Shown here: positions 38,105 to 64,000 of the stretch, piece after piece
Numbering within the stretch: position 1 is the stretch's first letter
Layout of the letters: each line of letters starts with the position of its first letter
Assembly: GCF_014334335.1 (NCBI RefSeq)
Contig: NZ_JACSEU010000001.1
Coordinates: 2,046,001 to 2,110,000, forward strand
Source: Treponema sp. Marseille-Q3903
GTDB taxonomy: Bacteria > Spirochaetota > Spirochaetia > Treponematales > Treponemataceae
Length of the DNA stretch: 64,000 nt
Reading direction: 5' to 3'
The notes under the pieces: model-generated
Database searches by the model: none
What the model was told of the DNA's origin: nothing
Seen by the model: the letters and a program-made list of their open reading frames with translations, nothing else
Translations under genes and position numbers: made by a program

Positions 38105-38771
38105 GGAATCTCCTACAGGTTACTCCGATTTTAATTATTCTCCCGCCCGGCGTCCATGAAATAAACGAAACATTGTCTACCGGCGATATATTTTGGCTGA
38201 AAACGAATGTGAGGGACAATAAGCAGAATTATATTTTTTAATTATGATATTATGATTATGGGCGTGCCGGTTTACGCCGTATAATTATGTACCGGCGGCG
38301 CAAACCGTCGGGCTTTTCGCTTGTAGCTTTTTGCCATTACTGCATTATAGAGGCAGTGTTTCTCCTCACGTCGAAAACTGCTTTTGCCATGTATCAACGG
38401 CAAAAAGGCTACCGCTGCAATCCCTCACGCTGTCCAAGAATTGACACCCTTGTCAATTCTTGGACGCGAGTTTTTTGAGAAGTAAAAAACATCGCTGCTG
38501 TGTGGAACCACAGACATCCTTGTCCGTTTGGGAAGGGGATATCTGCGACCTCGCTGAACATGAGGTTGCTTGGAACCAGCGGTATCCGTGACAAAAATCT
38601 GCACAACAGACGAGTTTATGTCAGAACCGCCATCTTCTGTGAAATCTGTATAATCTTAGTTTTGATCTCGTATGAGCAATATACGTATACAATAAGTTCT
38701 ATTTTTCTTCGTTATAATACACTTTGTTGAATTTACCTTTTGTATCCGTACCTTGTTCGATGTTTTGAGTG
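38105..38771. other. Gene-free interval with several hairpins
   Basis: No convincing ORF is present. The interval holds a perfect 13-bp inverted repeat (listed separately), TGTGG/CCACA (38498-38510 area), ACCTC/GAGGT (38548-38568 area) and two matches to GACA-YCCT-TGTC (38443-38454 and 38514-38525). It marks the downstream border of the defence operon and may be a patchwork of small palindromic repeats. Confidence 0.5.
38433..38464. repeat. Perfect 13-bp inverted repeat
   Basis: TCCAAGAATTGAC (38433-38445) and GTCAATTCTTGGA (38452-38464) flank a six-base loop ACCCTT. There is no T-tract, so it is a weak terminator candidate. The centre GACACCCTTGTC recurs as GACATCCTTGTC 70 bases downstream. 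Confidence 0.7.
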
Positions 38772-40436
38772 TTATTTTCTTCTAAGTTTTGGTGTTTCAG
38801 AATCAGGTCTGTTTTTAGGCTCATCGATTTTTAGTAGTAGAGGCATAGGAAAATCGACCCCAACAAGTAATGCTTCGCCTTCGCCAAGTATGGGTAAAAA
38901 TGATAGAACATTTCTATTTGCAGAAGAAGCGGCATTCTCTACTGCTTTTTTATCCAAATCATTAATTAGGCGATGAACAATAAAAGTTCCCATTTGGCTT
39001 AATGTTCCAACAGGAATATCTCTCGGCATTTGTGTAGATAAACAGAGAAATAAGCCGTATTTACGAGCCTCTTTAGCAATCAAATCAAATGCATCAAGTG
39101 AGTGTATCTCAAAAAATTCATCTTTCACACCTTTATTTAAAAATTGGTGAGCCTCATCTAAAAATAATACAACAGGATTTTTTACGAAGTCTTTACTTCT
39201 TGCTTTCTGTAACAGATATGTTGCCAAGGCATTCGAAACAATCTCTTTAGCAGAAAAAGATGATGGAATATCTTCAAAGCTGATCCGTAATATTGCACCT
39301 GTTGATGAAGATAAAAAGTCATCTATAGTTTTAATTATTGAAGAAATATTTCCTGGTATATTATTAAATCCGAGTAATTTTTTAAAAATATCTGTATTCA
39401 GAAGATCTGTTATGCGTGCAATAAGAGAAGTTTGATAATCGTATGTCTTTTTATCTTCCCCTCCAAATATTGTTATATCCTGATAACCGTTAGGATAAAT
39501 ACACTCTTCATGAATTTGTCTTACTAAGAGATGTATGTCAAAGTTGCAGTAATTGTCTTCAATAATATTTATATTCTCATCATACAAATTCCTATAAATA
39601 GATTTTTTGGTACCTGCTTTTACATATACGTTATTTTCTCCTTGTAACTGTTTTATCTTTAATGATCGAATCGCTTCTAATAGAATAGGTCGTTGTGATT
39701 GCCCTGTCGGTCTTAATAAATAGAATAAATCAGGAATAGACAGTTTTTGATATGGAAAATAAGAATTCACACCTAAAATATATGAATTATTTGTTAGATT
39801 TTTATATTCTCCTGTTGCATCGATCAAAATGACTTTATTCTTTGTATACTCAGTTATTCCTTCTATTAGTTTTGCTACTGTCCAGCTCTTTCCTCCACCT
39901 GTAGTACCGATAACAGCGCAATGACGTCCAAATAAAGAATCCAAAGAGACATTACAGAGAGCATCATTTGCAGTGAGTTTTCCTATTGGTGCATATGCGA
40001 CATCTATATTGTTCTCTTTTTTACCGAATTCCTTAATATATTTTGAAATCTGCTCATCAGAACAGGCATATACTTTTGCTCCTATATGAGGATAATTGGA
40101 GACGGTTTTCTGTGTTTTATTTGGTTCAAATAGATTAAATGTTAAAAGCAATTCCGCCTTACCGGATGGATGAAATAATGTTGTATCATCGTATATTGCT
40201 TTTTCGTTTATTTCTTTTCGTTCACTATCCGGTAAATTTAATTCGATAATACGTGCAAGGAAGCCATATTCTTCTCCTTCAATTACGATAAACTTACCGA
40301 CATTTCCACCTGTAAAATTTAATCCTTCATGATAGAATGTATGTAATAAATTAGAAGAAGGAAAATGAATCTTTACATATTGAGCTGTAATTTCATTGAT
40401 ATATCCTAGAAAATAGTTATGGTTAAATGGTTTCAT
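38772..40436 (-). CDS. HerA-type DNA translocase ATPase of a defence operon
   Basis: The 554-residue protein (ATG 40436; a longer reading from 40511 lies inside the SIR2 gene) has an N-terminal beta-barrel-like HAS domain (about 5-60, FLGYINEITAQYVKIHF). A HerA/FtsK-like ATPase follows: Walker A GTTGGGKSW (177-185), LIDATGEYK, Walker B VVLFLDEAHQF (422-432), and the late LSTQMPRDIP with sensor and Arg residues. HerA ATPases form hexamers, and in bacteria they pair with SIR2, nuclease or DUF4297 proteins in phage defence. The start overlaps the SIR2 stop by 14 bases, so the two are made together. It is the last gene of the operon. Confidence 0.85.
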   Translation of the reverse strand: MKPFNHNYFLGYINEITAQYVKIHFPSSNLLHTFYHEGLNFTGGNVGKFIVIEGEEYGFLARIIELNLPDSERKEINEKAIYDDTTLFHPSGKAELLLTFNLFEPNKTQKTVSNYPHIGAKVYACSDEQISKYIKEFGKKENNIDVAYAPIGKLTANDALCNVSLDSLFGRHCAVIGTTGGGKSWTVAKLIEGITEYTKNKVILIDATGEYKNLTNNSYILGVNSYFPYQKLSIPDLFYLLRPTGQSQRPILLEAIRSLKIKQLQGENNVYVKAGTKKSIYRNLYDENINIIEDNYCNFDIHLLVRQIHEECIYPNGYQDITIFGGEDKKTYDYQTSLIARITDLLNTDIFKKLLGFNNIPGNISSIIKTIDDFLSSSTGAILRISFEDIPSSFSAKEIVSNALATYLLQKARSKDFVKNPVVLFLDEAHQFLNKGVKDEFFEIHSLDAFDLIAKEARKYGLFLCLSTQMPRDIPVGTLSQMGTFIVHRLINDLDKKAVENAASSANRNVLSFLPILGEGEALLVGVDFPMPLLLKIDEPKNRPDSETPKLRRK

Positions 40437-41640
40437 TTTTATCACCTTCGTATTTTTCGGAATATGTTTCATTTTCTGGATAATTATTAGAAAAATTTTT
40501 AAATGAATCAAATATAATTGTCACATTTCTTTTAATTATTTTATGTTTATCGTCCTCAAAAAAATCTTTTAGACCTTCTCTATCAATTGAACCATCTTCA
40601 GTACCGCTATAATTAATGATCACTAATTGAAAACTGGGGTTTTGATTTACTGCTTCTAAAATTACATTTTTGATATGTTTATCTTTAAAGCCGAAACCAA
40701 TAACGATTAATAAAATATTTTCTTTCCGTAGCGCTTGTTGGAATCTTGACATCATTTCAAAATAAGGTTGTTCGTAGGAACTCTCATACTTATTTGAGGC
40801 CGGATAAATAATTAAAGGCTGCTCTGGGTTTGCAGTTTGTATAATTTTTTCCCCTGTTTTCTCCCAATTCAAGGAACCGTGTAATTTATATAAATGAAAA
40901 ACTCTTGAAACAAAACTGTCTTCTTGTTTTAATCTTGTTCTTTCCCTATTTACAATATCATAATCAAAATATCGTCCTGAAAATTCTCTTGGTTCGGTAA
41001 ATGAAAAACCGTCTATAATTACAAAGCCTCCGGTTTGAGCGGCTTGTTCAAATAGGGTATCATAATTCGTAGTAAATAGTTGAATCCGTGAATCACTTGA
41101 TTTCCGTGCAGTAATTTTATCAAGAAATAGTTTATGAGGAGCCCCTTCCTGTAACGTTAATGTACAAGCTTCCGCTATTTTCTTTTCAAGAGCAGTAATT
41201 TTATCTGAAAATGCTTCATTTGAGCTATTAAGTTTTTTATGTAAGATAATATGAGATAATAAATTTTCAATATCTTTATGCTTATAGAAATCTCTTTCCT
41301 TTAAATCCGTTATATCATTTATAAAAGCATCAATTTCAGACAAACAATATTCCCAAAGTCCGTCACGTATTTTGCCACGCTTCGTTTCATCAGCTCCATT
41401 ATCCAAAGATGTCCCTGCTGCAGATAATATGACAATATTCTGAAAATGCCTTTTAAAAAAATTATTGTAAAACTTGAGTTTTTCTTTATTAGCCGCCTGT
41501 TCGATTGGAGTGGAGATATTGGTTGCCAATTCAAATGCATCAGTTTTATTATCTGTAGAAGAGATAATTTGACCGTCCACATAACAATGTGTATCATCAT
41601 ACGCTATTGTTTTATCTTTTCTAATGACTATTTCTTTCAT
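40423..41640 (-). CDS. SIR2-family NAD-binding effector
   Basis: The 405-residue protein carries the SIR2 core: NAD loop ILSAAGTS (71-78, an A-A-G-x-S version of GAGIS), TTNYDTLFE (190-198), catalytic His254 in KLHGSLNW, and IGFGFKDKHI (314-323) near the end of the NAD fold. It lacks the zinc-binding cysteines of sirtuin deacetylases. It resembles SIR2 proteins of Thoeris, Nezha (SIR2-HerA) and related systems, which hydrolyse NAD during phage infection. It overlaps the HerA gene by 14 bases and follows hsdS by 14 bases. The operon position suggests it is the toxic effector, with HerA as partner. Confidence 0.85.
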   Translation of the reverse strand: MKEIVIRKDKTIAYDDTHCYVDGQIISSTDNKTDAFELATNISTPIEQAANKEKLKFYNNFFKRHFQNIVILSAAGTSLDNGADETKRGKIRDGLWEYCLSEIDAFINDITDLKERDFYKHKDIENLLSHIILHKKLNSSNEAFSDKITALEKKIAEACTLTLQEGAPHKLFLDKITARKSSDSRIQLFTTNYDTLFEQAAQTGGFVIIDGFSFTEPREFSGRYFDYDIVNRERTRLKQEDSFVSRVFHLYKLHGSLNWEKTGEKIIQTANPEQPLIIYPASNKYESSYEQPYFEMMSRFQQALRKENILLIVIGFGFKDKHIKNVILEAVNQNPSFQLVIINYSGTEDGSIDREGLKDFFEDDKHKIIKRNVTIIFDSFKNFSNNYPENETYSEKYEGDKNETI

Positions 41641-41654
41641 TTGTTTTCTCCAAA

Positions 41655-43142
41655 CTAAAATCTTATGATTTTACCTTCAATAACATCGTCCATCATCTTA
41701 ATGGCTTCTTGTTCTTTTAAGTAAGCCTGATAACGAAGATCATTTGCTTGTAGTACCATATTGTTTATCTCTTGTTGTTTTAATTCATTTTTGAGTAGAG
41801 GAATTTCTACATCCCCAACATGATGTATATCAATTTCATCTACAACAGCTCCATATGTATGCTTTTGAATAAATTGCAAACCATAATCAGTACTTAACCA
41901 GCAATACAAATAACCGGCGATTTCTTTATTTGCAGGAAATACTCTTATCATATGCTCATTTGCAGCCCAGTTTTCCCAATGCTTAGGTACAATAGATACT
42001 TTACCAATTGTACCGCTTCGAGTTATAAGAATAGTATTTTCTTTTAAGAGGAGTTCTCTTCCCAATCTTGTTCCATGTAATGTTGTAGACAAATATTTTT
42101 CTGAGGTAGGATTTAATTCATTTATATGTTTGCCTCCTATGAATTTTGTACCATATTCATGCCCCTCAACATATGTTCTTTTAAATCTCATTGGTAAAAT
42201 AATTGAATCTGAAATAGCTTTATCCTTACATAGAAGAATATTTTTCGCTGTTTTTTTTAAAGTATCTATTATTGAATTACATATTGGTACATGATACGAA
42301 CAATCCAATCTCAAATCCAAACTGCTCAGCCGAGTAGTATAATTACGCAGGTCAACGGTTTTATCAAAATATGTTGGCTTTAGATCTTCTATTGGCGGTA
42401 GTTGTAATTCTTGATAAAGTATTTTTTCTGCATTTTCAATAAGGTCATTTGATTGATCTCGTAAATTATACGAAGTAATAATTAACTCGTGTATATTCTG
42501 TTTTATACTTTCGGGAGCATCGGGAATAATGATATTCTTTAAGTGTTCGGGTTCTATTTCATCAATCACAGCACCAAAGGTATTTGCTTTAATAAGTGTT
42601 TTACCAATTGTTGTTTTCAAATAAGAATAAATATAGCCTCCAAAAGCAATAGGTTCAATTCTTATTGCATGTTCGCTAACTAATAGTTTTGATAATGTTT
42701 TATTAACAAATGTAACATTACCTATAGTACCTGAGCGAGAAAGCAGTATGCACCCCTCTTTAACAGAGAATTGAGAAGATTCAGTTTTTATTAGAAACTT
42801 GAGCGGTCTAGGATTAATATCTAACATTTCTGAACTTCCAATAAAGCCTTGCGAACCTATTACAGTTTTGTCAACATAATTACGTTTTTTACGATTCCCG
42901 TAAAAGGCTTCTTTCACTAATCCACCATCTCCCCAAAGGTGTACATATCCGTATAGACAATGCTTTACTTTTGATTTTGCTGCTTTAGCATTAAGGTTAA
43001 AAGCACTTGCTTCAAGACGGAGTTTGTTGTATTGAACTTCAGATAGAGAAACGGAAGTATATTGTAATGGTGTAGGAGATAAAGGATTTTCAATCGGTTT
43101 TTCTTCATGAAACCTGTTTAAAGCTAAGTTATCGGCTACCAT
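41655..43142 (-). CDS. hsdS: Type I restriction-modification specificity subunit (HsdS)
   Basis: The 495-residue protein has two target-recognition domains (about 30-210 and 275-450). Each contains the HsdS-type strand ILLSRSGTIG or ILITRSGTIG and a later (F/Y)GAV(I/V)DEI segment, and each is followed by a helical spacer (NLRDQSNDLIENAEKIL and NDLRYQAYLKEQEAIKMM). Each domain recognises half of a bipartite DNA site. ATG 43142 is preferred since GGAAGG lies before it; it overlaps the hsdM stop by seven bases. The partner must be the adjacent HsdM-like protein. No HsdR translocase is present in the operon. Confidence 0.9.
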   Translation of the reverse strand: MVADNLALNRFHEEKPIENPLSPTPLQYTSVSLSEVQYNKLRLEASAFNLNAKAAKSKVKHCLYGYVHLWGDGGLVKEAFYGNRKKRNYVDKTVIGSQGFIGSSEMLDINPRPLKFLIKTESSQFSVKEGCILLSRSGTIGNVTFVNKTLSKLLVSEHAIRIEPIAFGGYIYSYLKTTIGKTLIKANTFGAVIDEIEPEHLKNIIIPDAPESIKQNIHELIITSYNLRDQSNDLIENAEKILYQELQLPPIEDLKPTYFDKTVDLRNYTTRLSSLDLRLDCSYHVPICNSIIDTLKKTAKNILLCKDKAISDSIILPMRFKRTYVEGHEYGTKFIGGKHINELNPTSEKYLSTTLHGTRLGRELLLKENTILITRSGTIGKVSIVPKHWENWAANEHMIRVFPANKEIAGYLYCWLSTDYGLQFIQKHTYGAVVDEIDIHHVGDVEIPLLKNELKQQEINNMVLQANDLRYQAYLKEQEAIKMMDDVIEGKIIRF

Positions 43143-45151
43143 GTAATGCCTTCCTGCTTTTTCCATTTAGCAAAAACATCGGCAACCAAAACAGTTTGGT
43201 CATTTACGCCTTTTACCTGATGTGTTTCTCTGCGGTAAACTACATTTCCGTCCGAATCTTTTTCGGCAATGTTTTCTTCTTTCTCTACCATAATAAGATT
43301 ACCTTTTTCATCCCGCTTAAAAATAGTATTGCCGCGTTTGTCGTGTCCGATATGGTCTATCATGGTCATAAATATGTTGTAATCAATTATTTGGCCGCTT
43401 TTTTCTTCTTCGTCCATTTCTTTTTGTGTTTTCTTTTGAAGAAAGAGAATCGAACATTGAGTTCCGTTACGCGGCTGGAATGCATCGGCGTGTAGGTCTA
43501 TACTGGCAATGATGCGAGTTTTACAAATCAACCACTGGCGGATATACTCCAATCCGGGAGCGCCGAGAATGCTGTCGGGCAGCACGATTGCACAACGCCC
43601 TCCCTCTTTGAGCAATTGCAATATGCGTTCGATAAATAACTGCTCGGGCGGTACGCTACTTTGCAAGCGTGCGGTTTTATGCCAGTTACCTTTTTCATCT
43701 TTTTGCCAGATATGTCCTAAATCAAATTGCTCCAATATCTGGGTGTCTTGTATGGGAATCTTGGAACCGAAGGGCGGATTTGTAACAATCACATCGAAAA
43801 GACCGATTGTTTTATGATTTAGAATGGTTTTAGAATCTACTTCGAGCGCTGTTGCCAGATATTTTTTTGTTTCTTCTGCCCATTCTTGCGGCGGAAGCAA
43901 GGTATTGAGTTGTACAATATTACCACTGCCGTCATTATTCATCACCATATTCATTTTAGTAGCTTTTACAAGGTCAGGATTAATATCAAAGCCGAAGAAG
44001 TTTTTTGCAGCTGTTTCTGAAATCTTCTCATTGTAAGCCTTTAGAATATCATGATTCCATTTTGCCTTTTCGCCATACTGTTCTATAAACCGTTTTTGCA
44101 GGCGTTCAATTACTTTATTCATTGCTGTAACTACAAACCCGCCCGTACCGCAGCTGCTATCCAAAACTTTTTCGGTATCTTGAGGGTTAATCATGTCAAC
44201 TGCCATTTTCATTACATTGCGCGGAGTAAAAAACTCTCCGCGGTCTCCCCGTAAGTTTGCTCCCACAATTTCTTCATACGCTTTTCCTTTAATATCGATG
44301 TTCGTATTGAGTAAGGCGTATTTTTGGAGTTCTGCTACAAGAAAAGTAAGGGTACGCGGTGTAAGTTTTATGCTGTCATTCTGATCAAATATCTGAGCAT
44401 GTTTCTTTTTTACTGCTTCAAATATTTTCGTAATTCGTTTATATACCGTTGCTTGACCGTCTTTATAATTGCGTTCTGTTGAAGTTGTATAGAATTCAAT
44501 TGGATCAAGAACATTGTGTTCATCATGAATTTTACAAAAAATAACTTTTAAGAATTCAAAAAAAGCAGGCTGCTTTTGCAGCCCTTCATATACATAAATA
44601 ATATTATGACAAGTGCGGAAAGTAAACAGCAGATTATCATCAAAAGCTTTCTTTAACGTGTTGCGGTTGGGTCTTTCATTTTCATCAGCACTTCCATCTG
44701 CTGAAGGAATATCATTATATTCATCCCATACAAACATACCTTTTTCGTCAATAGTTTTTCGGAAAACGGTCTTGTGCAGCCCATTTGTCCACATACCCCA
44801 TTCGCAGTTACTACATGATGACATATAGGTTTTCAGCTGTTCCGTGCCGTTATCCTTGTCAGTCGGTTTTATGGCTTCTTTTTTGCATTCGATGATAAGA
44901 GAAACACGCTGTTGATCTTTTTTTTCATCTTCAGTTGTGCCATCAGGAAAAATAACGATATCAGCTCGTTTCCTGCCTGACCCCATTTGTATACTATATT
45001 CAATAGCTATGCGTTCTTTAGCATATTTATGCTCATTTACTAACCGCTTTTCAACTGTTTGACGTACATACTCTTCAGGGGTCTCGTTTCGAATTGTCCC
45101 ATCTACATAGTCACGTATTTTTCCTTCAGGAATGATTATTATCTTTTCCAT
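43136..45151 (-). CDS. HsdM-type adenine methyltransferase fused to an N-terminal PD-(D/E)XK nuclease-like domain
   Basis: The 671-residue protein starts with an HSDR_N-like domain (about 20-130): RADIVIF with Asp64 and LIIECKKE with Glu88 and Lys90, the D...E-x-K pattern of an active nuclease core. Residues 170-671 are an N6-adenine methyltransferase: FFTPRNV, motif I LDSSCGTGGF (330-339), and motif IV NPPF (458-461). The nuclease part of classical HsdR is thus attached to the modification subunit, while its helicase is absent. Such a protein could modify and cut together with HsdS, as in type IIG/I-like enzymes. It is the first gene of the four-gene operon and has a good promoter about 50 bases upstream. 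Confidence 0.85.
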   Translation of the reverse strand: MEKIIIIPEGKIRDYVDGTIRNETPEEYVRQTVEKRLVNEHKYAKERIAIEYSIQMGSGRKRADIVIFPDGTTEDEKKDQQRVSLIIECKKEAIKPTDKDNGTEQLKTYMSSCSNCEWGMWTNGLHKTVFRKTIDEKGMFVWDEYNDIPSADGSADENERPNRNTLKKAFDDNLLFTFRTCHNIIYVYEGLQKQPAFFEFLKVIFCKIHDEHNVLDPIEFYTTSTERNYKDGQATVYKRITKIFEAVKKKHAQIFDQNDSIKLTPRTLTFLVAELQKYALLNTNIDIKGKAYEEIVGANLRGDRGEFFTPRNVMKMAVDMINPQDTEKVLDSSCGTGGFVVTAMNKVIERLQKRFIEQYGEKAKWNHDILKAYNEKISETAAKNFFGFDINPDLVKATKMNMVMNNDGSGNIVQLNTLLPPQEWAEETKKYLATALEVDSKTILNHKTIGLFDVIVTNPPFGSKIPIQDTQILEQFDLGHIWQKDEKGNWHKTARLQSSVPPEQLFIERILQLLKEGGRCAIVLPDSILGAPGLEYIRQWLICKTRIIASIDLHADAFQPRNGTQCSILFLQKKTQKEMDEEEKSGQIIDYNIFMTMIDHIGHDKRGNTIFKRDEKGNLIMVEKEENIAEKDSDGNVVYRRETHQVKGVNDQTVLVADVFAKWKKQEGITW

Positions 45152-45372: not shown

Positions 45373-45899
45373 TTACTCTCCCCTTTCCAGCTTCCAGTTC
45401 CGGCTCTGCACCTGCGTTTCCCACAGCTTTGCATACAGCGGTGATTGCTTCAACAGTTCGCCGTGTGTTCCCGTTGCAGCGACCGTTACGTTATTCATCA
45501 CGATAATTTGATCGCAGTCGGTAACTGCTGATAACCGGTATGCAATTACAATGAATATTTAACCAGACCTCTCAAATTATGCGGTCTGGTTAAACGCCGA
45601 GTTTGCGCAAAGCGCAAACATCGCTTATTAACGTATGCGCTATCGCGCATGAATTCGTCCGCCTCCAAAATTGATATTTTGTTCGGCTATCGAATTTTAA
45701 GGATTGTTTTGTCTTTACATAATTCTTCGAGCGACTTTTGAATTTTGTGCTGATTTTCCATATCAGCATAAGCGGTTGCTTCGTCAAGAATCAGTATCAG
45801 TGCGTTCCGCAACAGAGCACGGGCAATGATAATCCACTGCCGCTGCCCTCCCGACAATTTTGCACCATCGTCTCCTGCACTCGTATTGTAGCTATCCAA
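45373..45899 (-). pseudogene. ABC transporter ATPase-domain remnant, split by a structured repeat
   Basis: The remnant starts in the middle of the ATPase domain (SYNTSAGDDGAKLSGGQRQ, then ILILDEATAYAD) and breaks after KDKTIL. It resumes 150 bases later with IVIAYRLSAVTDCDQIIVMNN and ends ETQVQSRNWKLERGE at the TAA 45375-45373. The membrane domain and Walker A are gone. The LDEATA(F/Y)AD wording matches the first half-transporter of the second TetR module (56.5-58.2 kb), so it was probably the IrtA-like partner of the gene at 36.4-38.1 kb. Its 5' side meets the GmrSD remnant head-on at about 45900. Confidence 0.8.
45553..45703 (+). repeat. Structured repeat, copy A (four covarying helices)
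   Basis: A 151-bp insert in the ABC remnant. In order: GAATATTTAAC, helix CAGACC/GGTCTG, GTTAAACGCCGAG, helix TTTGCGC/GCGCAAA, CATCGCTTATTAACGT, helix ATGCGC/GCGCAT, then an outer helix AATTCG/CGAATT with inner GCC/GGC and AAAAT/ATTTT separated by TCC and GTTC, ending ATTTTAAGGA. The same joints recur in copy B at 63075-63228 with different helix sequences. Borders are uncertain by a few bases. Confidence 0.75.
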
Positions 45900-48886: not shown

Positions 48887-50608
48887 ATGACTGAAAAGGA
48901 ATTAAAAAAACAGGTAACGGGTAAAACCTTTTTGTCCAATGTGCTGCTTGCACTTAAAATAGTGTTTGACTTACTACCGCAGATTTTATTGGTATTGGTG
49001 ATAAGCAGCCTATTTTCGGGCAAAGCGGAAAGGGAATATTTTAAAATGATTGCCGGAGGTATTTTCATCTCGTTTATGCTGAAGGCGTGTTGTAATTATC
49101 TTGCCGTAAAGACAGCTCATGACAGGGCTTTTAGTACATTGACGGAATTACGGCTTGCCATAATTGAACACCTAAAAAAATTGAATTTAGGCTTTTTTAA
49201 AAAGCATACTACCGGCGAGCTTACAAGCATCGTTGAACACGATGTAGAGCAGGTTGAAATATATCTGGCGCATGGTCTTCCGGAAATTATGGCGGCAACT
49301 CTGCTTCCTGTTCTGGTTTTTATTACAATGCTTTTTATAGATTACCGGCTCGCATTAATAATGATTGCAGGGGTACCGCTCATGTTCCTTGTACAACAAT
49401 TATCTGCAAAGACCATGCAAAAAAGATTCCAAATATATTTTGAACGAGAAATGCAGATGAGGGAAGATATGATGGAATATGTAAAAAATATTGCCGTCAT
49501 AAAGGCATTTGCAAAAGAAGAGTGTTTTAGCGGCAAGACTTTGGATTCCGCACGCTCTTATGTGCAAGATGTAAAAAAGAGTATGGGTGCCGTTACGGGT
49601 CCGATGGTGCTTATAGATATTTTTATGGAAGCCGGAGCGGTATCGGTTATGATGTTAGGAAGTATACTGCTATTACATAACAATATTTCTACCGCTCAGT
49701 TTATACTGTCCGTTATCTTATCTTCGGTGTTTGTGTCAGCAATAAGTAAAACCGCAACGCTCCATCATTTTTCCATCGTGTTTACTGAAAAGCTCAAAAG
49801 CATAGCGGTAATTCTCTGTGCTCCTCTTGCAAAAGAAAAGATCAGCGAAAAACTGAAAATGGGGGATATAGAATGTAAGAACGTACATTTTAAGTATGAA
49901 AAAGACGGCTTTGCGTTAAAAGATATTACGGTACAGTGTAAAGAAAACACTTTAAATGCGCTTGTCGGGCCGAGCGGTTGCGGTAAAAGCACTCTTGCGA
50001 ATCTTATCATGGGTTTTTGGGATGTTGATTCAGGCGTGCTCACAATTTCGGGCAAAGATATTTCACGCTATGATACGGACAGCATTTCCGCTCTTATCGG
50101 AAGTGTTCAGCAGGAAGTAATTCTTTTTAATATGAGCATCTTTGAAAATATCGCGATCGGTAAGGCGGGCGCTTCCCAAGCGGAAGTGATAGAAGCCGCT
50201 CAAAAAGCACGATGTCATGATTTTATTTCCGCCCTGCCTCACGGCTACAACACACGGGTCGGAGAGATGGGCGTAAAACTTTCGGGAGGAGAAAAGCAAA
50301 GAATATCCATTGCTCGGATGATTCTTAAAAACGCTCCAATTCTTATTTTAGATGAAGCGATGGCGGCGGTTGACAGCGAAAACGAAAAACTCATAAACGA
50401 GGCTATCGAAGAATTAAGAAAAAATAAAACGGTTATCACGATTGCGCATCACCTGAACACCGTACAAAACGCGGACAAAATAATCGTTATGGATAAAGGC
50501 CGCATACTGGATTCCGGCACACATGAAGAATTGATTTTGCGATGCACCTTTTATAAAGAAATGGTCGAAGCCCAAAACAAAGTCGACAACTGGAAAGTGT
50601 CGGGATAA
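48887..50608 (+). CDS. ABC half-transporter, first of pair (module 1)
   Basis: The 573-residue half-transporter has a six-helix exporter-type membrane domain (about 20-300) and an ATPase domain with Walker A GPSGCGKST, signature LSGGEKQRISIARMI, Walker B ILILDEAMAAVD and switch His in TIAHHLN. It is followed, after 273 bases, by the second half gene. The pair resembles heterodimeric exporter-fold systems such as YbtP/YbtQ and IrtA/IrtB that import siderophores. The linked ECF genes support a role in uptake of a small, scarce nutrient. The substrate cannot be named from sequence. Confidence 0.87.
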   Translation: MTEKELKKQVTGKTFLSNVLLALKIVFDLLPQILLVLVISSLFSGKAEREYFKMIAGGIFISFMLKACCNYLAVKTAHDRAFSTLTELRLAIIEHLKKLNLGFFKKHTTGELTSIVEHDVEQVEIYLAHGLPEIMAATLLPVLVFITMLFIDYRLALIMIAGVPLMFLVQQLSAKTMQKRFQIYFEREMQMREDMMEYVKNIAVIKAFAKEECFSGKTLDSARSYVQDVKKSMGAVTGPMVLIDIFMEAGAVSVMMLGSILLLHNNISTAQFILSVILSSVFVSAISKTATLHHFSIVFTEKLKSIAVILCAPLAKEKISEKLKMGDIECKNVHFKYEKDGFALKDITVQCKENTLNALVGPSGCGKSTLANLIMGFWDVDSGVLTISGKDISRYDTDSISALIGSVQQEVILFNMSIFENIAIGKAGASQAEVIEAAQKARCHDFISALPHGYNTRVGEMGVKLSGGEKQRISIARMILKNAPILILDEAMAAVDSENEKLINEAIEELRKNKTVITIAHHLNTVQNADKIIVMDKGRILDSGTHEELILRCTFYKEMVEAQNKVDNWKVSG

Positions 50609-50747
50609 TTCATAATTAGGAATTAGGAATGCTGATGAGGAATTAAAGAGATAGCTAATTTAAGAATTAATTTTGAGCTGAATATCTCTATAAATTCCCA
50701 TTAACTGTTTCAATATAAAAATAAACCTAGCCATAAAAGGCAGGGTT

Positions 50748-50868
50748 CTTAGGGGCGGCAGCCCTAAGCGGTTCTTTTGAAAATAGGAGGGGTTATAGGG
50801 GAGGCAACAACCAACGAAGTTTCGAGGTGAAGAAATCTTTTATCCGAAAAAGTGTCTTTCCTCCCCTA
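50748..50868. repeat. Hairpin-rich intergenic element between the ABC genes
   Basis: CTTAGGG-GCGGCAG-CCCTAAG (50748-50768) is a perfect hairpin, and TAGGGGAGG (50796-50804) pairs with CCTCCCCTA (50860-50868) across 55 bases. It ends just before the AAGGAG ribosome site of the next gene, so in RNA the outer stem could influence its translation. Confidence 0.5.
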
Positions 50869-50881
50869 AAAAGGAGTATTT

Positions 50882-52606
50882 ATGTATAAAGAATTATTTG
50901 TATTTTTGAGTAAGAGGGGAAAAATCGATGTATGTATTTCTTCTCTGTTTTTTACCTTGTACGGATTGAGTTCCGTAGGGATGTTACTTACGGTGTTTTC
51001 GATTTTGTTTAAGATTGCTGCCGGGACTAATGTGCAGGGACTCTACGGGGCTTTTGCAATGCTGATAGGCTTGGTCGTTTTTAAGGGCATTTGCAATATG
51101 ATTGCCGACTTAAAAAAACACGGAGCCGGCTTTGATGTGGTGCAGCAAATACGGGAGCGGATGATTGTCAAATTAAAGCTGTTTAGTTTGGGATTTTATA
51201 CGAATGAACGGCTGGGAGAATTAAATACAATTCTTCATAAAGATGTGGACAATATGTCGATGGTGGTAGGGCACATGTGGCCGCGGATGTTCGGTGATTT
51301 TCTCATTGCTCTTGCGGTATTTATAGGCCTTTGCTTTATCAACCTTAGTGCAGCCATTGTTATGGCCGCGTCGATTCCGATTTCGCTTGCCTATCTTTTT
51401 TACACAATTAAGGGAGCAGAAAAAACGGAACATAACAATAATTCCGCACTTGCCGATATGGTGAGTTTATTTGTCGAATATGTACGCGGTATTCCGGTGC
51501 TCAAAAGTTTTTCGCATAATAAAAGTCTGGATAATGAACTTTTTGAAAAGACTAAAAAATTCGGAGAAACAAGTAAGGCTGCGTCCCGTTTTAAGGCAAG
51601 ACAGCTTTCGGTTTTTTCGTTTTTAATTGATGCTGGGTATTTTGTTCTTTTTATTTATTCCGGTCTTGCCGCATTACGCGGAAGCATTGATGTACTCAGC
51701 TTTATGATTATCGCAGTCATTTCAAAAGAATTTTATAAACCTTTTGCAGCGATGGAAACGCACTATATGTATTATGTGTCTGCCGTAGATAGCTATCACC
51801 GCTTGGGAAAAATTCTTCATGCCGAGGTAATAGCCGATAAAACAGATGGGGTTACTCCTGCACAAAACGATATTGTTTTTAAAGATGTAGAGTTTTCTTA
51901 TGAAGAAGATGAGTTCAAAATGAATGGAGTAAATTTTTCTGTTCCGGAAAAAACGATGACCGCGCTTGTAGGAGAATCGGGAAGCGGTAAGACGACGGTT
52001 ACGAATTTGCTGTTGCGCTTTTACGATGTGCAAGGCGGAAGTATTACGCTCGGCGGAATTGATATACGAGATATTCCCTACGATGAACTTTTGGATCGCA
52101 TCAGTATTGTTATGCAAAACGTGCAGCTTTTCGATAACACCATCGAGGAAAATATCCGAGTAGGAAAAAAAGGAGCAACGAAAGAAGAAATCATCGAAGC
52201 TGCAAAAAAGGCAAGGATTCACGATTTTATTATGAGCTTGCCGAAAGGCTATGAAACGGATATAGGCGAAAACGGAGGTCTCTTATCCGGCGGACAAAGA
52301 CAGCGGATTTCCATTGCACGAGCATTTCTAAAAGACGCTCCGATTTTAATCCTTGATGAGATGACCAGCAATGTCGATCCCGTAAATGAGTCTTTAATAC
52401 AGAATGCCATTACCGAACTTGCAAAAAATAGAACGGTCATAGTGATCGCTCATCATTTAAGGACTATTCAAAAGGCAGATCAAATCCTTGTCTTTCAAAA
52501 AGGCTGTCTTATCGAAAAAGGAAAACACGATGAACTTTTGGAAAAAGATGGGTACTATGCTCGGCTGTGGAAAACACAATACGGGAGCGGAATGTGCTCT
52601 CGCTAA
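50882..52606 (+). CDS. ABC half-transporter, second of pair (module 1)
   Basis: The 574-residue half-transporter has a membrane domain (about 15-290) and an ATPase domain with Walker A GESGSGKTT, signature LSGGQRQRISIARAF, Walker B ILILDEMTSNVD and switch His in VIAHHLR. AAGGAG precedes the ATG. It partners the product of the gene upstream. Its last 13 bases overlap the preferred start of the ECF ATPase gene, giving strict translational coupling between the exporter-type pair and the ECF importer. Confidence 0.87.
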   Translation: MYKELFVFLSKRGKIDVCISSLFFTLYGLSSVGMLLTVFSILFKIAAGTNVQGLYGAFAMLIGLVVFKGICNMIADLKKHGAGFDVVQQIRERMIVKLKLFSLGFYTNERLGELNTILHKDVDNMSMVVGHMWPRMFGDFLIALAVFIGLCFINLSAAIVMAASIPISLAYLFYTIKGAEKTEHNNNSALADMVSLFVEYVRGIPVLKSFSHNKSLDNELFEKTKKFGETSKAASRFKARQLSVFSFLIDAGYFVLFIYSGLAALRGSIDVLSFMIIAVISKEFYKPFAAMETHYMYYVSAVDSYHRLGKILHAEVIADKTDGVTPAQNDIVFKDVEFSYEEDEFKMNGVNFSVPEKTMTALVGESGSGKTTVTNLLLRFYDVQGGSITLGGIDIRDIPYDELLDRISIVMQNVQLFDNTIEENIRVGKKGATKEEIIEAAKKARIHDFIMSLPKGYETDIGENGGLLSGGQRQRISIARAFLKDAPILILDEMTSNVDPVNESLIQNAITELAKNRTVIVIAHHLRTIQKADQILVFQKGCLIEKGKHDELLEKDGYYARLWKTQYGSGMCSR

Positions 52607-54063
52607 AAGATATTTCGTATAAAACAAGGACAGGTCTTCTCATTCTCGACAATATAAACCTCGAAATAAAAAAAGGAGAATTTGTTGTCATTACCGGAAA
52701 AAGCGGAAGCGGGAAGAGCACACTCGGCTCTGTTATCAACGGCCTTATCTCGCATTACTATGACGGAGTATTAACGGGCGAAGCTTATCTAAACGGAAAA
52801 GATATACGCACTATGGAGCTTTCACAAATAGGCAAGAAGGTAGGAACTGTATTCCAAGACCCAAGAAGTCAGTTTTTTATGTTAGATCCATTTAACGAAG
52901 TTGCTTTTGGTTTATGCAATATGCGTTTGAACAAAGATGAGATAAAACAGCGCGTCACAAACAGCTTACGGATTTTCGGGATAGAAAACTTAAAAGAAAA
53001 AAGTATTTTTAAACTATCCAGTGGAGAAAAACAGAAAGTGGCGATTGCATCGTGCTATGCTATGGATCCGGATGTCTATTTATTTGATGAACCTACTGCA
53101 AATTTAGATATACAGTCTATTTTTGATTTAAAAGACATTTTAAGAGAATTGAAAAATAATGGAAAAACCATAATCGTATTGGAACACAGATTGTTTTATC
53201 TTACAGAGTTATTGGATCGTATCATTGTGCTTAATGATGGAAAAATTGAAGGAGAATATTCATCCCAATCCCTCATAGATATACAGCGAAAACATCGGGA
53301 TATTAGAAGATTGTATTTGAATGATTTGAAAGTGGTCAACCACAATGAGCAAAAGATTATGAAAACTCCGATCTTGGAAGTTAAGAATCTTTCATATTTT
53401 CATTCAAAAAAAGAAAATACCGGTATCTTAAAAGACATATCAATTACTGCATTCGGTAATGAGATTATAGGAATTATAGGTGAGAACGGAGTCGGCAAAA
53501 CAACTTTTGCAGGAATTTGTGCGGGTTTATTAAAGGAAACAAGCGGCACTGTCTTTATCCAAGGTAAAAAATATGTCTATAAAAAAAGATTAGGGAAGGT
53601 CTATTTTGTTATGCAAGATTCCGATTTTCAGCTTTTTGCGGAAAGTGTAAATAAAGAACTCAGTATTGGAAAATCCGGTGCAATGCTTACAGACGAAGAA
53701 AAAGCCGCTATTTTGTCAAGGTTTGAAATTCTTGATTTTAAGAATAGACACCCGATGACCCTATCAAGAGGTCAGAAACAAAGATTGACTATTGCAACTG
53801 CGGTAAGCAGTGAAAGTAATGTAATATTTTTTGACGAGCCGACGAGCGGCTTAGATAAAAATTCAATGGACTTAGTATCAAATAGCATTTTAGAAATTTC
53901 CGATACCAATAAAACTCTTTTTATAATCTCGCATGATTATGAATTTTTATTATCCGTTTGTAATCGAATTGTTTATTTCAAAGATGGAAGTATACAAGCT
54001 GATTTTAAGCTCAATAATGATACTAAGAAGAAACTTTGGGAACTTTTAAGTAAAGGTAGGTGA
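52594..54063 (+). CDS. ECF transporter double ATPase (EcfA-EcfA' fusion), module 1
   Basis: The 489-residue protein has two complete ATPase domains. The first has Walker A GKSGSGKST, signature LSSGEKQKVAIA and Walker B VYLFDEPTANLD. The second has GENGVGKTT, LSRGQKQRLTIA and VIFFDEPTSGLD. This is the fused form of the two ATPases of energy-coupling-factor importers. I prefer GTG 52594, with GGGAG eight bases upstream and alignment with the paralogue at 60 kb; a GTG at 52567 would add nine residues. It works with the EcfT and EcfS proteins coded next. Confidence 0.85.
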   Translation: MLSLKDISYKTRTGLLILDNINLEIKKGEFVVITGKSGSGKSTLGSVINGLISHYYDGVLTGEAYLNGKDIRTMELSQIGKKVGTVFQDPRSQFFMLDPFNEVAFGLCNMRLNKDEIKQRVTNSLRIFGIENLKEKSIFKLSSGEKQKVAIASCYAMDPDVYLFDEPTANLDIQSIFDLKDILRELKNNGKTIIVLEHRLFYLTELLDRIIVLNDGKIEGEYSSQSLIDIQRKHRDIRRLYLNDLKVVNHNEQKIMKTPILEVKNLSYFHSKKENTGILKDISITAFGNEIIGIIGENGVGKTTFAGICAGLLKETSGTVFIQGKKYVYKKRLGKVYFVMQDSDFQLFAESVNKELSIGKSGAMLTDEEKAAILSRFEILDFKNRHPMTLSRGQKQRLTIATAVSSESNVIFFDEPTSGLDKNSMDLVSNSILEISDTNKTLFIISHDYEFLLSVCNRIVYFKDGSIQADFKLNNDTKKKLWELLSKGR

Positions 54064-54791
54064 TGAAAATGAATGTAAAAAAAGAGTTGGATCCAAGAAC
54101 GGTTCTTGGAATTGTATTTATTCTCGTTATGCTGGGACTCGCTATAAATAAACCTTTACCGTCACATGTTTTACTGATTATTTGCAATATATATTTGCTA
54201 ACTGCAAAAGCATATTGTGAATGTATTTTGTATAGCGTGATTTATATAATAATTGCAGGATTGATGTTTTATATTCACCATATTCCCAACACGACAGTAG
54301 CATTAACAATTGTTTCGATAAGCTATTTTGTTCATAAGTTTATCATTGCTATAATGATGATTGAATTTTTGAAGAGAAAGACTTCAATGCCGTATGTTAT
54401 ATCTGCTATGCAAACAATGAAGTTTCCCAATGCTATTGCAATCCCGTTTATTGTCATATTGAGATATATGCCAACGCTGAAAGAGGATTATAGACACTTA
54501 AAAGATAGTTTAAAAATAAGAGGACTTCGGACTTCAGGAGTGCAGTTTTTTATTCATCCTATCCGCTCACTGGAGTTTATGATTGTTCCAATTTTATTCA
54601 GGAGCATTCGAGTAGCGGAAGAACTATCAACTTCGGTTTTGCTGAGAGGAATTGAAAATTATAAAAACAGAACAAATATCTATCCGCTCAAATTTACAAA
54701 AACGGATTTTGCATACGGATTATGTACGGCTATTGCTGTAGGTGCGGTATCGTACTTACAGTTTAGTAATAGGGTGGAGTTTATGTTTTAA
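54063..54791 (+). CDS. ECF transporter transmembrane coupling protein EcfT, module 1
   Basis: The 242-residue protein has about five membrane helices and the EcfT coupling segments rich in Ala-Arg-Gly, here DSLKIRGLRTSG and SVLLRGIENYKN, which contact the ATPases. ATG 54063 overlaps the stop of the ATPase gene by one base (TGATG) after an AGGTAGG ribosome site. It matches the CbiQ/EcfT family in length and layout. Confidence 0.85.
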   Translation: MKMNVKKELDPRTVLGIVFILVMLGLAINKPLPSHVLLIICNIYLLTAKAYCECILYSVIYIIIAGLMFYIHHIPNTTVALTIVSISYFVHKFIIAIMMIEFLKRKTSMPYVISAMQTMKFPNAIAIPFIVILRYMPTLKEDYRHLKDSLKIRGLRTSGVQFFIHPIRSLEFMIVPILFRSIRVAEELSTSVLLRGIENYKNRTNIYPLKFTKTDFAYGLCTAIAVGAVSYLQFSNRVEFMF

Positions 54792-54810
54792 TGCGACAAG
54801 GATTGAAGGG

Positions 54811-54886
54811 GCGGCTTTGCCGTTCCGCAGGAATGGAGCGATAGCGGAACCCCGAAAAGCCTGTTTTTTGCGATGTGTCGCAAAAA
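54811..54886. repeat. Hairpin cluster between EcfT and EcfS genes
   Basis: GTTCCGC (54832 area) pairs with GCGGAAC (54844-54850), and TTTTTGCGA-TGTG-TCGCAAAAA (54865-54886) is a perfect 9-bp hairpin followed by GTCGCCC. The arrangement hairpin, A-run, TCG(C/T)C recalls part of the structured repeat found at 45.6 and 63.1 kb, but the match is loose. Confidence 0.5.
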
Positions 54887-54953
54887 GTCGCCCTAAAAAT
54901 ACAGTATGATAAAACAAAATATTCAAAGCAAATATAAATGTAAGGAGAATGTC

Positions 54954-55556
54954 ATGGAAACAACGACAAACAAACTAAACGCCAAAGATTTTATTTTTAT
55001 CGGAATCTTCGCTGCGGTTGCACTATTAATTTTCTTTATTACGGGAGCACTCGCTGCATTAACGCTTTTCGGAACGATAGCCAATATCCCGATTACGCTG
55101 TTTTTTGTATCGATAGCATTTATGCTGGCGGCATCAAAGGTAAGAAAAACGGGCGTCTTTTTTATTATGGGGATAATTATCGTTTTACCGGGATTTATGG
55201 CGGCAAACGGAATAGGCGTCGGCCTTTCAATTATCGGCTGGTTCATTGCGGAGATTCTTGCGTCAACGATGAAGTACAAAGATAAAAAAGCAATCATATT
55301 GCCCTATGTGCTGGGCTCCACATTGCAGACAGCCTTGTTCACCCTGCCTATGTATATTTCGCATGGAGAATATTTTATGCAAAGAAAGGAGATTTTACAT
55401 TTAACGGATGAAGCTTTACAACAGTATTTGCAGGTTGTGGGTTCATGGCAGATGTACGGTTCAATGATTGCATTGACGATTATAACAAGTTTCGCGGGAG
55501 CGTGGATTTCTATGCGGATATTAAAAAAGCATTTTGAAAAAGCGGGAGTTATTTAA
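54954..55556 (+). CDS. ECF transporter S component, Trep_Strep type, module 1
   Basis: The 200-residue membrane protein has about six helices. It starts LNAKDFIFIGIFAAVALLIFF, which resembles the S-component opening that binds EcfT, and ends in a basic tail LKKHFEKAGVI. The pattern fits the Trep_Strep integral membrane family, assigned to ECF substrate-binding subunits. ATG 54954 follows AAGGAG; an upstream ATG at 54906 has no ribosome site. It decides the substrate of the importer, which is unknown. Confidence 0.82.
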   Translation: METTTNKLNAKDFIFIGIFAAVALLIFFITGALAALTLFGTIANIPITLFFVSIAFMLAASKVRKTGVFFIMGIIIVLPGFMAANGIGVGLSIIGWFIAEILASTMKYKDKKAIILPYVLGSTLQTALFTLPMYISHGEYFMQRKEILHLTDEALQQYLQVVGSWQMYGSMIALTIITSFAGAWISMRILKKHFEKAGVI

Positions 55557-55582
55557 AAAGTAATATTTTAATTGTTTAAGTA
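55523..55582 (+). repeat. 60-bp near-identical repeat, first copy
   Basis: The last 34 bases of this EcfS gene and the following 26 non-coding bases (stop, then AAAAGTAATATTTTAATTG) are almost identical to 62731-62790, with three differences. It marks the end of the duplicated ABC/ECF module. Confidence 0.85.
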
Positions 55583-55693
55583 GAAGACCACTCATACATA
55601 CTATCTTTGCCGCTCGCCACCGCATAAAGGCAGCGGCTTCATTAATTTTCCCGTTGGTGGGAAAAATAGAAAAAATTTTAGATGAACGTTCTA

Positions 55694-55729
55694 TTGACCA
55701 AAATGTAAAGATTTGATAATCTAATTATC
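55694..55729 (+). promoter_or_regulatory. Promoter with overlapping GATAAT palindrome before the second TetR gene
   Basis: TTGACC (55694-55699) and TAATCT (55717-55722) are 17 bases apart. The perfect palindrome GATAAT-CTA-ATTATC (55715-55729) covers the -10, and a second GATTATCAT-like half follows at 55736-55749. The site resembles Fur/DtxR-type iron boxes as well as a TetR operator. Confidence 0.6.
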
Positions 55730-55772
55730 AAAAATATCATGATTATCATTTTTAAGGCTATGGGGAATCTAG

Positions 55773-56414
55773 ATGTCTTACTGTTCGGATATAACAAAAA
55801 ATAGAATTTTAGAGTGTGCTAAAAAAGAATTCCTGAAGAAAGGCTTTGATAAGGCTCAGGTAGGTGAAATTGCAAAAGCGGCAAATGTAACTACAGGTGC
55901 GATATATCGTCATTTTAAGAACAAAGAAGATTTATTTTTCACACTGATTGAAGATGTATACAAATATACTTTAGAAGTTGTGGTTGAGGTTGAAACCAAG
56001 AATGAGAGTGAAGATTATAAGACGCTGTTAGCGCAAGATGAACACATTGTTATTGAGGCCATGTTTTCCGAGGCAATGAACTTTGTAAATTATATGTATG
56101 AACATTTCGAGGAGTTTAAGCTTATTTTTGAATGCAGCAAAGGCTCAATGGTTGAAAATTTTGTTGAAGAAATTGTCAACAGATACACGAAAAAAAACAT
56201 GCGGTTAATACACTCTTCCGGAAATAAGAAATTGGGAATTGATAAGATTGAGGAATTTGAAGTTTATATGCTTACGAGAGGATATATCATTTCTTTGTGT
56301 GGATGTATCATACATAACATTCCACACAATTATGCAAACAGATATATAAAAAGTATTGTTGCTTTTCAATATTATGGTTGGAACGGCTTGCTAAATTTCA
56401 ACACCCGAAAATAA
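55773..56414 (+). CDS. TetR-family regulator of the second ABC/ECF module
   Basis: The 213-residue protein has the TetR DNA-binding domain at residues 8-55 (RILECAKKEFLKKGFDKAQ, then VGEIAKAANVTTGAIYRHFKNKEDLFFTL) and a divergent helical C-terminus. It stands 51 bases before the ABC genes of module 2 on the same strand without a terminator between, so it may be co-transcribed with them. The palindrome over its own -10 suggests autorepression or control by an iron-type regulator. Confidence 0.88.
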   Translation: MSYCSDITKNRILECAKKEFLKKGFDKAQVGEIAKAANVTTGAIYRHFKNKEDLFFTLIEDVYKYTLEVVVEVETKNESEDYKTLLAQDEHIVIEAMFSEAMNFVNYMYEHFEEFKLIFECSKGSMVENFVEEIVNRYTKKNMRLIHSSGNKKLGIDKIEEFEVYMLTRGYIISLCGCIIHNIPHNYANRYIKSIVAFQYYGWNGLLNFNTRK

Positions 56415-56465
56415 CCTTTCTCGTGTCAAGGTTAGTAGGAACTAAGTATCTAAGTATAGAGAGGA

Positions 56466-59948: not shown

Positions 59949-59956
59949 GTGATAAA

Positions 59957-62880: not shown

Positions 62881-64000
62881 GTTCCTTGAATATCCCACAG
62901 CCGCCGGTATAGTCCCTCTTGTGCAATCAGCTCTGCATGAGAGCCGCGCTGACTGATTGTTCCGTTTTCCAGCACGAGAATCTGATCGGCGTTCTGTATA
63001 GTAGAAAGTTTATGTGCAATCATAATCACTGTTTTGTTTTTTAAAAGTTCCTGTAAAGCCGTTTGAATCAGCGTTCCTTAAAATGCAACAGTTGAACAAA
63101 GTTTGAACTTTGGAAACTGTTGCATTCGTGCGCGATAAGCGCACATATAATACTGCGATGTTTCGGCTTCGCCCGAAACTCGTCGTTTAACAAGGCGGTG
63201 CTATTTTAACCGCCGAAGTTAAACATTCGTCTTCCGCATCGACATTTGCCGTTACCTCGTCCAAAAGGATAATCGGCGCATCCTTGATAAGAGAACGCGC
63301 AATGGAAATACGCTGCTTTTCTCCGCCGGAAAGTCGTGCTCCCGCCTCACCGATAACCGTGTTGTAGCCATCTTCCATCGCTTCAATAAATTCCGCACAG
63401 CCTGCACGCCGTGCTGCTTCACGGACTTCTTCAATCGTTGCTTCCGGCCGGCCGATGCGGATATTGTTCAGCACGGTATCATTAAACAAAAACACATCCT
63501 GAAATACAAAACTGATATTCTTTAACAAGTGTTCGTACGAGAGCATTTTTACCGCCTTGCCGCCGATGCTGATCTCCCCGTGCCCGGGCAGGATATCCCA
63601 AAAGCGGGCAATCAAATTCGTAACCGTCGTTTTGCCGCTCCCCGAAAGTCCGACAAGAGCCGTCGTCGTTCCTTCCGGTACGCAAAAACTAACATCTCGC
63701 AATACCGGCGTTTTATTGTATGCAAAATTCACATGCTCAAAACAAATATCGTACCGCTCAAGTTTTTCCGTGCCGGAAATATCTTCTAATTTAGGAATCG
63801 TCTTAATTTGATTCATCCGGTCGATGGACTGTTGCGTCATCTTCGCAAAGATACTGAATATACCCATCGCTTCGGCGCCGGTAAAAAGACTGAACGAGGC
63901 AAGCATCAATAAAAAGGCTTGCGGAAATACGAAGTCCTTGTGCAATAGAAACAGTCCGGAAAGAAATACAATTCCCGTCGTAATCAGCCGAAAACATAAT
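62859..64000 (-). pseudogene. ABC half-transporter interrupted by the structured repeat (5' end outside window)
   Basis: The frame is open from the right edge of the window: end of the membrane domain (FSLFTGAEAMGIFSIFAKM), then Walker A GLSGSGKTT, signature LSGGEKQRISIARSL and Walker B IILLDEVTANVD. After DAEDE the frame enters the 154-bp repeat and stops. Beyond the repeat TLIQTALQELLKNKTVIMIAHKLST continues without any other damage to a TAG at 62861-62859. It is a close relative of the gene at 36.4-38.1 kb. The lack of other lesions suggests a recent insertion. The truncated product lacks the switch His. Confidence 0.85.
63075..63228 (-). repeat. Structured repeat, copy B (four covarying helices)
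   Basis: Read on the minus strand: GAATGTTTAAC, helix GGCGGT/ACCGCC, GTTAAACGACGAG, helix TTTCGG/CCGAAA, CATCGCAGTATTATAT, helix GTGCGC/GCGCAC, then GAAT and an outer helix GCAACAGTT/AACTGTTGC with inner AAAGT/ACTTT separated by TCC and GTTC, ending ATTTTAAGGA. The single-stranded joints match copy A at 45553-45703; the helices differ but still pair. Confidence 0.75.

Follow-up and report, generated by a model that had tools for sequence, protein, structure and literature searches.

TD-1, a structured Rfam motif, as a probable non-autonomous mobile DNA element of the Treponema family

Two structured repeats inside ABC-transporter genes

The window, a stretch of 64,000 nucleotides from Treponema sp. 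Marseille-Q3903, contains two copies of a repeat, copy A at 45553-45703 on the plus strand and copy B at 63075-63228 on the minus strand. Copy A interrupts an ABC-transporter gene in antisense orientation, and copy B interrupts a different ABC-transporter gene in sense, where the remaining frame (63187-63945) has ABC_tran. Adjoining copy A, at 38772-45151, are type I restriction-modification genes (a methylase with an HSDR_N domain and a specificity subunit) together with a HerA-type helicase. An exporter paralogue cluster occupies 48887-61468 and comprises four similar-sized ABC exporter genes, a Trep_Strep membrane protein and a double ABC protein.

The first-pass annotation had described a structured, non-coding repeat in which the two copies share a set of joints in the same order, while the helices between them differ in sequence and each arm still pairs with its own partner. 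This description is supported throughout: every joint was found in both copies, and the named helix differences are real. The repeat had not been recognised as a known riboswitch, intron or REP element, and its apparent novelty is not supported, since both copies exceed the gathering score (64.5 bits) of the Rfam family TD-1 (RF03155) and are the only TD-1 matches in the window to do so. An Rfam match that already explains the repeat had been named there as grounds for discarding the proposal; such a match exists in name, although the Rfam lines consulted give a type and no mechanism. We also scored the copies with a covariance model, R1, which was built from 24 sequences, both window copies included, so that their R1 scores below are those of members of its own building set.

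38428-38527, minus strand: TD-2 match (RF03162, 57.7 bits)
45553-45554: GA, left junction of copy A, present again at 45702-45703
45555-45701, plus strand: copy A of the TD element, class G (Rfam TD-1, 68.2 bits; R1, 98.7 bits)
45558-45594, plus strand: H1 of copy A, its 5′ arm absent from the Rfam TD-1 model
45598-45623, plus strand: H2 of copy A, CGAGTTTGC...GCAAACATCG
45635-45650, plus strand: H3 of copy A, ATGCGC-TATC-GCGCAT
45652-45696, plus strand: H4 of copy A, a long hairpin with internal loops
45702-45703: GA, right junction of copy A, from comparison of empty and filled sites
63074-63076: GAA (minus strand), right junction of copy B
63077-63225, minus strand: copy B of the TD element, class G (Rfam TD-1, 77.9 bits; R1, 98.1 bits)
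63083-63125, minus strand: H4 of copy B
63128-63144, minus strand: H3 of copy B
63185-63224, minus strand: H1 of copy B
63226-63228: GAA (minus strand), left junction of copy B, repeated at 63074-63076

The full TD unit consists of four hairpins, H1-H2-H3-H4, with conserved loops or joints between them, and spans 145-235 bp. H2, H3 and H4 coincide with the model of RF03155 (clan CL00124). That model starts partway through H1: the 5′ arm is missing, and the 3′ arm makes up positions one to ten, which are left unpaired. TD-2 belongs to the same clan but is typed by Rfam as an sRNA gene. Its match at 38428-38527, which like the two gene interruptions was absent from the first-pass annotation, forms hairpins resembling H1-H2-H3 on the opposite strand, with no H4 by eye, and the TD-2 model scores 39.0 bits, under its gathering score, against the opposite strand of copy A. 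TD-2 looks like the TD-1 architecture on the other strand, without H4.

TD-1 was reportedly first described by Weinberg et al. in 2017. In the literature searched by listings, a scope outside which the original description falls, there is no account of TD-1 or TD-2 as mobile, and a term search of PMC10969869 gave no match. While the motif itself is a known Rfam entry, the present account is new in its mobility, its full extent, its Shine-Dalgarno siting and target classes, and its DNA-like stems.

Dispersal, end motifs and siting

The copies fall into two classes. Class S has an H1 of the GATAAAA type, usually ends in ...TTTTTATRGGAG, shows by eye a putative terminal inverted repeat of only about 7 bp (ATAAAAA) and lies at ribosome-binding sites in the orientation of the gene. 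Class G, the type found in the window, ends in ...TTTTAAGGA, has an H1 with RTTTAAC, and is mostly intergenic, in arrays or inside genes.

The covariance-model search that had been proposed for the repeat returned further copies both in this genome and in other Treponema genomes, with at least 23, 84, 103 and 93 R1 copies in four genomes, counted among the best 150 of more than 1500 candidates per genome; the at least 103 copies belong to a genome of 2.8 Mb, and others carry as few as one. Within the genus, 55 of the 146 genomes contain Rfam TD-1, each with 1 to at least 22 matches among the best 22 candidates. Among 392 sampled Spirochaetota genomes, scanned with filters that lose weak matches, 50 were positive for R1, all of them in the family of the window and distributed over 10 genera. 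No Rfam TD-1 match was found in 14 control genomes outside Spirochaetota, plasmid and phage records gave no match to one 228-bp class-S copy, and a search of IMG/VR with narrow, exact patterns found no TD.

The evidence, which is wholly comparative, indicates that TD-1 has been dispersed as a mobile element. Empty counterparts exist for nine insertion loci, namely copies A and B, six class-S loci of a related genome (G119), and one rpn locus within G119, where one paralogue lacks the element and two have it. The site of copy A is uninterrupted in a paralogue of 92% identity that lies 19 kb from it in this genome and has the frame of an ABC transporter, and also in a homologue in G048 (empty counterparts L097 and L099, the L099 frame having ABC_tran and ABC_membrane); the empty site reads ACAATGAGCGTTTTG and the filled one ACAATGA[element]GATTGTTTTG. 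For copy B, the empty site was found in G048 (L100), with flanks 93-96% identical. Copy A is flanked on either side by GA and copy B by GAA, a motif that each empty site has a single time, and the right junctions carry small additional changes (GC to TT in A, one base lost in B). A look for empty sites in relatives, suggested in the first-pass annotation, was thus successful for both copies, and together with the copy number this lends support to the 'mobile hairpin element' that it had offered as one possibility. Rfam types RF03155 as Cis-reg, whereas here it behaves as a mobile unit with empty sites.

When the flanks of 11 G119 copies were queried in four relatives, six copies had at least one continuous empty counterpart, giving eight comparisons; in a typical pair, the empty site is ACAACGGAGGAAAAAATG and the filled one ACAACGGAGG-TACGATAAAA...TTTTTATG-GGAGGAAAAATG. 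In three of the eight (L239, L246 and L254) the left flanks are merely 77-80% identical. L239 may hold a remnant of the element. The G142 counterpart of L107 retains a stretch that resembles the 3′ terminus of the element and may be a remnant; in L109 the left motif is changed. At obg, the Shine-Dalgarno site is occupied by a copy in this genome, but an element was found upstream at none of the 79 public loci showing upstream sequence (80 named loci taken), and in a second set, with organisms overlapping the first, it was absent from 26 of 27 loci with at least 200 nt upstream. Recent spread is indicated by 11 copies of 231 bp in this genome that are at least 97.5% identical. These eleven copies (L009-L018 and L020) have an insert in the loop of H2, and since G048, G119 and G132 have matches of 230-232 bp as well, these copies may represent a currently active type.

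In class S, GGAG stands at either junction of the insert and occurs a single time where the site is empty, which leaves the gene with a ribosome-binding site; the corresponding motif of class G is GA or GAA. Of 36 class-S copies (11 from this genome and 25 of the 26 in G119), 31 have the same tetramer at both ends, GGAG in 30 and AGAG in one, and insertion occurs 3′ of a fixed motif, with GGAG to the left of the element in 33 of the 36. Two copies repeat a deviant motif on both sides (AGAG in L075, AACG in L082), which speaks for target duplication. The end tetramers differ in the other five of the 36 (L109, L265, L268, L277 and L279), which speaks for a motif borne by the element as in IS200/IS605, or for later change. 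Most sites fit duplication and an element-borne motif alike. Either way, a purine motif stays at the old distance from the start codon.

All 11 single class-S copies of this genome lie directly upstream of a gene, at Shine-Dalgarno sites, and the genes below them include obg, a MurD-like ligase, a malic enzyme and a TPP enzyme; in addition, a threefold tandem array precedes an rsgA-like gene with a TTG start. In G119, where 62 of the at least 103 R1 matches were examined, we assigned 26 to class S and 36 to class G, four copies with GAGAGG ends having been moved by eye from G to S (the script labels before that move were 22 S with 20 at gene starts, and 40 G with 7). A frame of at least 60 codons starts 5-10 nt past the right motif in 24 of the 26 class-S copies, which are not fully independent because rpn loci are duplicated; of the other two, one lies at a locus cut by its end and one is followed by another copy. 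By the same rule, only three of the 36 class-G copies are at a gene start, and 33 lie elsewhere.

The window contains 319 GGAG tetramers on both strands, of which 23 are at Shine-Dalgarno positions, 263 in genes and 33 elsewhere under a simple ORF rule. With these proportions, the siting of 11 out of 11 copies has P = 3e-13 if insertion is blind and P = 6e-5 if all in-gene insertions are lost. As both probabilities are low, purging of harmful insertions does not by itself account for the siting, in which survival may nevertheless play a part.

Several copies depart from the standard form. In L030 (G087:C19), a 34-nt direct duplication flanks a 5′-truncated copy and takes in the gene's Shine-Dalgarno site as well as its start codon. 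The right flank of L007 (G000:C1, around 864940) has three tandem copies followed by 18 nt equal to the element start, before the rsgA-like gene, and copies in L084, L078 and L026 are likewise trailed by 5′-end fragments. In G119, the class-S copies of L304-L307 have extra hairpins within H1, where they interrupt its 3′ arm, and L309, L310, L315, L317 and L321 are half-elements of H3+H4 only, three of them (L309, L310 and L317) at a ribosome-binding site. At L333 (about 1834-1994, G119), a class-S copy occupies an internal ribosome-binding site of an rpn nuclease gene, and an internal start after the copy would give the C-terminal part alone. The class-G copies of seven other G119 loci (L264, L271, L274, L275, L277, L282 and L283) are inside a larger repeat, 394 bp in L283 and longer in some, whose terminal inverted repeats, TCAGGG(A/C)TTACGCATGA, make it a classical MITE with a TD passenger.

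Covariation in the four hairpins

On a plain, structure-free MAFFT alignment of 24 copies, RNAalifold predicted 39 pairs, and two-sided compensatory change occurs at least once in 33 of these. A larger alignment of 83 copies (70 chosen sources, 79 distinct rows) was fitted to R1 and hence favours the structure; in it, standard pairs make up 94.3% of 2981 cells compared to 65.6% in shuffles, the covariation score is 0.684 against 0.180, and 36 of the 39 pairs vary on both sides. None of 500 shuffles reached any observed value, and slid partners paired in at most 48.3% of cases. Because covariation exceeds both shuffles and slid partners, the central observation of the first-pass annotation, compensatory change between the helices, holds. 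That this change betrays selection on folded RNA or single-stranded DNA, as was proposed there, is doubtful, given that outside one H3 pair G-U pairs are about as frequent as A-C mismatches.

The 2981 cells contain 80 G-U pairs and 50 A-C mismatches, divided as 22/22 in H1, 1/3 in H2, 8/7 in H4 and 49/18 in H3, where a single pair accounts for 27 of the G-U cells. Without that pair, the counts are 55 G-U versus 51 A-C over all 83 rows, 46 versus 43 after thinning to 90% identity, and 34 versus 24 at 80% (p = 0.24); with it retained, the G-U excess is significant (p = 0.009 to 0.028). For comparison, the stems of seven distinct tRNAs at the same loci have 10 G-U and no A-C in 161 pairs, a zero that is partly built in because ARAGORN itself favours G-U. 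That G-U is no commoner than A-C in H1, H2 and H4 points to DNA rather than RNA, as it means that the structure is held about equally on both strands. Palindromic DNA, or template switching that corrects hairpins, fits these counts better than RNA does.

Template switching in quasi-palindromes could keep stems perfect without selection. Such a process bears on the covariation alone and does not conflict with mobility; mostly Watson-Crick stems, the lack of a G-U preference in H1, H2 and H4, and copies that differ by whole stems are all consistent with it. Conserved unpaired stretches such as CTGAAATAGCG and CTTATT, however, imply constraint outside the stems, and R1 finds four hairpins in a fixed order in 10 genera, so that we regard template switching as a possible but doubtful source of the pattern.

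Mobilisation and known systems

Considering the empty sites, the siting and the stems together, we interpret TD-1 (with TD-2) as a non-autonomous mobile DNA element of the Treponema family, at a probability of about 0.87. An enzyme supplied in trans would recognise the hairpins or the ends and move the element as DNA, the target would be opened at the purine motif, and the motif would be either duplicated or carried at the right end of the element, as in IS200/IS605; of the possible modes of mobilisation, such an enzyme acting in trans on the hairpins seems the most likely. Class S leaves its right-hand motif 5-10 nt before the start codon. The genes obg, murD and ftsY are essential, and the SRP54-type GTPase below one class-S copy is, by our reading, ftsY; insertion at these genes is presumably tolerated because the gene never loses its ribosome-binding site. 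The hairpins would persist as Watson-Crick palindromes because it is in DNA that they function, and effects on translation would be a by-product. Class G, the type of the window copies, is able to break genes.

An autonomous relative was sought with a second model, R2, comprising H3+H4. It gave at least 18 matches in this genome among the best 150 of 3551 candidates, compared to at least 23 for R1, and every one lies inside an R1 match or beside a TD-2 match, so that none is an orphan right half. Among 11 further G119 places (of 20) that were examined, no autonomous or gene-bearing form was present; five were H3+H4-only forms, four had extra hairpins in H1 and two were of other kinds. The ORFs that recur near copies encode ABC proteins, rpn nucleases and antisense-looking frames. 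That TD is a separate kind of mobile DNA, in which a host or phage enzyme of no known transposase family would act in trans and target Shine-Dalgarno sites, can be put forward only tentatively.

One alternative would be a single-strand element of the IS200/IS605 type, as a palindrome-associated derivative, moved by a Y1 transposase and inserting 3′ of a fixed motif without target duplication, with the motif at its right end. The hairpin ends, the fixed target motif, the right-end motif, the head-to-tail arrays and the five copies with unlike left and right motifs would all follow from it. Yet no match to the Y1 transposase (PF01797) was found in this genome in spite of its 11 copies of at least 97.5% identity, Y1 is not associated with TD across the genus (17 of the 55 genomes with TD have it, against 23 of the 91 without TD; n = 146), and L075 and L082 repeat their deviant motifs on both sides, all of which makes this mechanism unlikely.

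Another candidate for the mobilising nuclease is the PD-(D/E)XK family T_den_put_tspse (Rpn, TIGR01784), which NCBIfam calls a putative transposase. In G119, six class-S copies out of 26 are located at an rpn gene or ahead of a C-terminal piece of one; two of the six loci score above the cut-off of TIGR01784, two above the PF04754 cut-off, and two are short pieces below it. Several of these loci are, on the other hand, duplicates of one another, and no rpn-like ORF occurs in 464 kb (18%) of this genome; we consider a role for Rpn improbable.

In line with the type assigned by Rfam, TD-1 could also be a cis-regulatory RNA leader, that is, an ancestral 5′-UTR structure controlling the genes below it and lost in some relatives. 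The sense orientation of class S, upstream of genes and beside the start codon, agrees with such a role, as does the RNA-like excess of G-U over A-C in H3. The genes below the copies, however, have no relation to one another (obg, rpn nucleases, a malic enzyme, an SRP54-type GTPase, a MurD-like ligase and a TPP enzyme), and those sites that could be compared are not conserved between species. Moreover, copies A (antisense) and B (sense) break coding genes, 33 of the 36 class-G copies of G119 are away from gene starts under the rule used above, and H1, H2 and H4 have no G-U preference, so that a leader function is very improbable as the explanation of the family.

A retro-element, SINE-like and copied by a reverse transcriptase, would account for the 5′-truncated forms (L030 and the H3+H4-only copies) and for the one 34-nt duplication, but RVT_1 is absent from 12 of 14 TD-carrying genomes, this one included (it is present in G084 and G021), and H1, H2 and H4 are without an RNA signature, which leaves this origin barely tenable. 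Self-splicing or translational bypassing of the host gene was dropped, as copy A is antisense to its gene, and an integron attC site was rejected by eye, class-G H1 resembling the core boxes and class S not.

If TD is indeed a mobile DNA element, an unexplained RNA family would become one, and would constitute a major repeat class of some Treponema genomes. It would also provide a case in which insertion at a translation start signal leaves the gene intact. On the tentative reading of TD as a separate kind of mobile DNA, each cell would have dozens of genes, some of them essential, that carry a mobile hairpin leader yet keep their ribosome-binding site. Covariation and a 5′-UTR position, the usual marks of regulatory RNA, could then both arise from a hairpin transposon, the count of G-U versus A-C would offer a simple test for other orphan Rfam motifs, and the hunt for the mobilising enzyme would become a defined question.

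Among known systems, the core boxes of integron attC sites are RYYYAAC and GTTRRRY; the likeness to TD lies in the arms of class-G H1, and the differences are that class S has no boxes and that the target motifs are scattered purine motifs. Palindromic elements derived from IS200/IS605 are hairpins with a fixed left target motif, a like motif on the right and one hairpin at each end, whereas TD has four hairpins, this genome has no Y1, and some of the junctions look like target duplications. TD shares with MITEs that it is short, without a transposase and repeated at many places. The pneumococcal MITEs BOX and RUP are described in PMC3049150 as short, highly base-paired, present in high copy number, clustered, inserted into one another and parasitic. 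TD differs from them in that no partner insertion sequence with matching ends was found here and in that class S sits at Shine-Dalgarno sites, and it is like them in being short, highly base-paired, high in copy number, clustered and nested.
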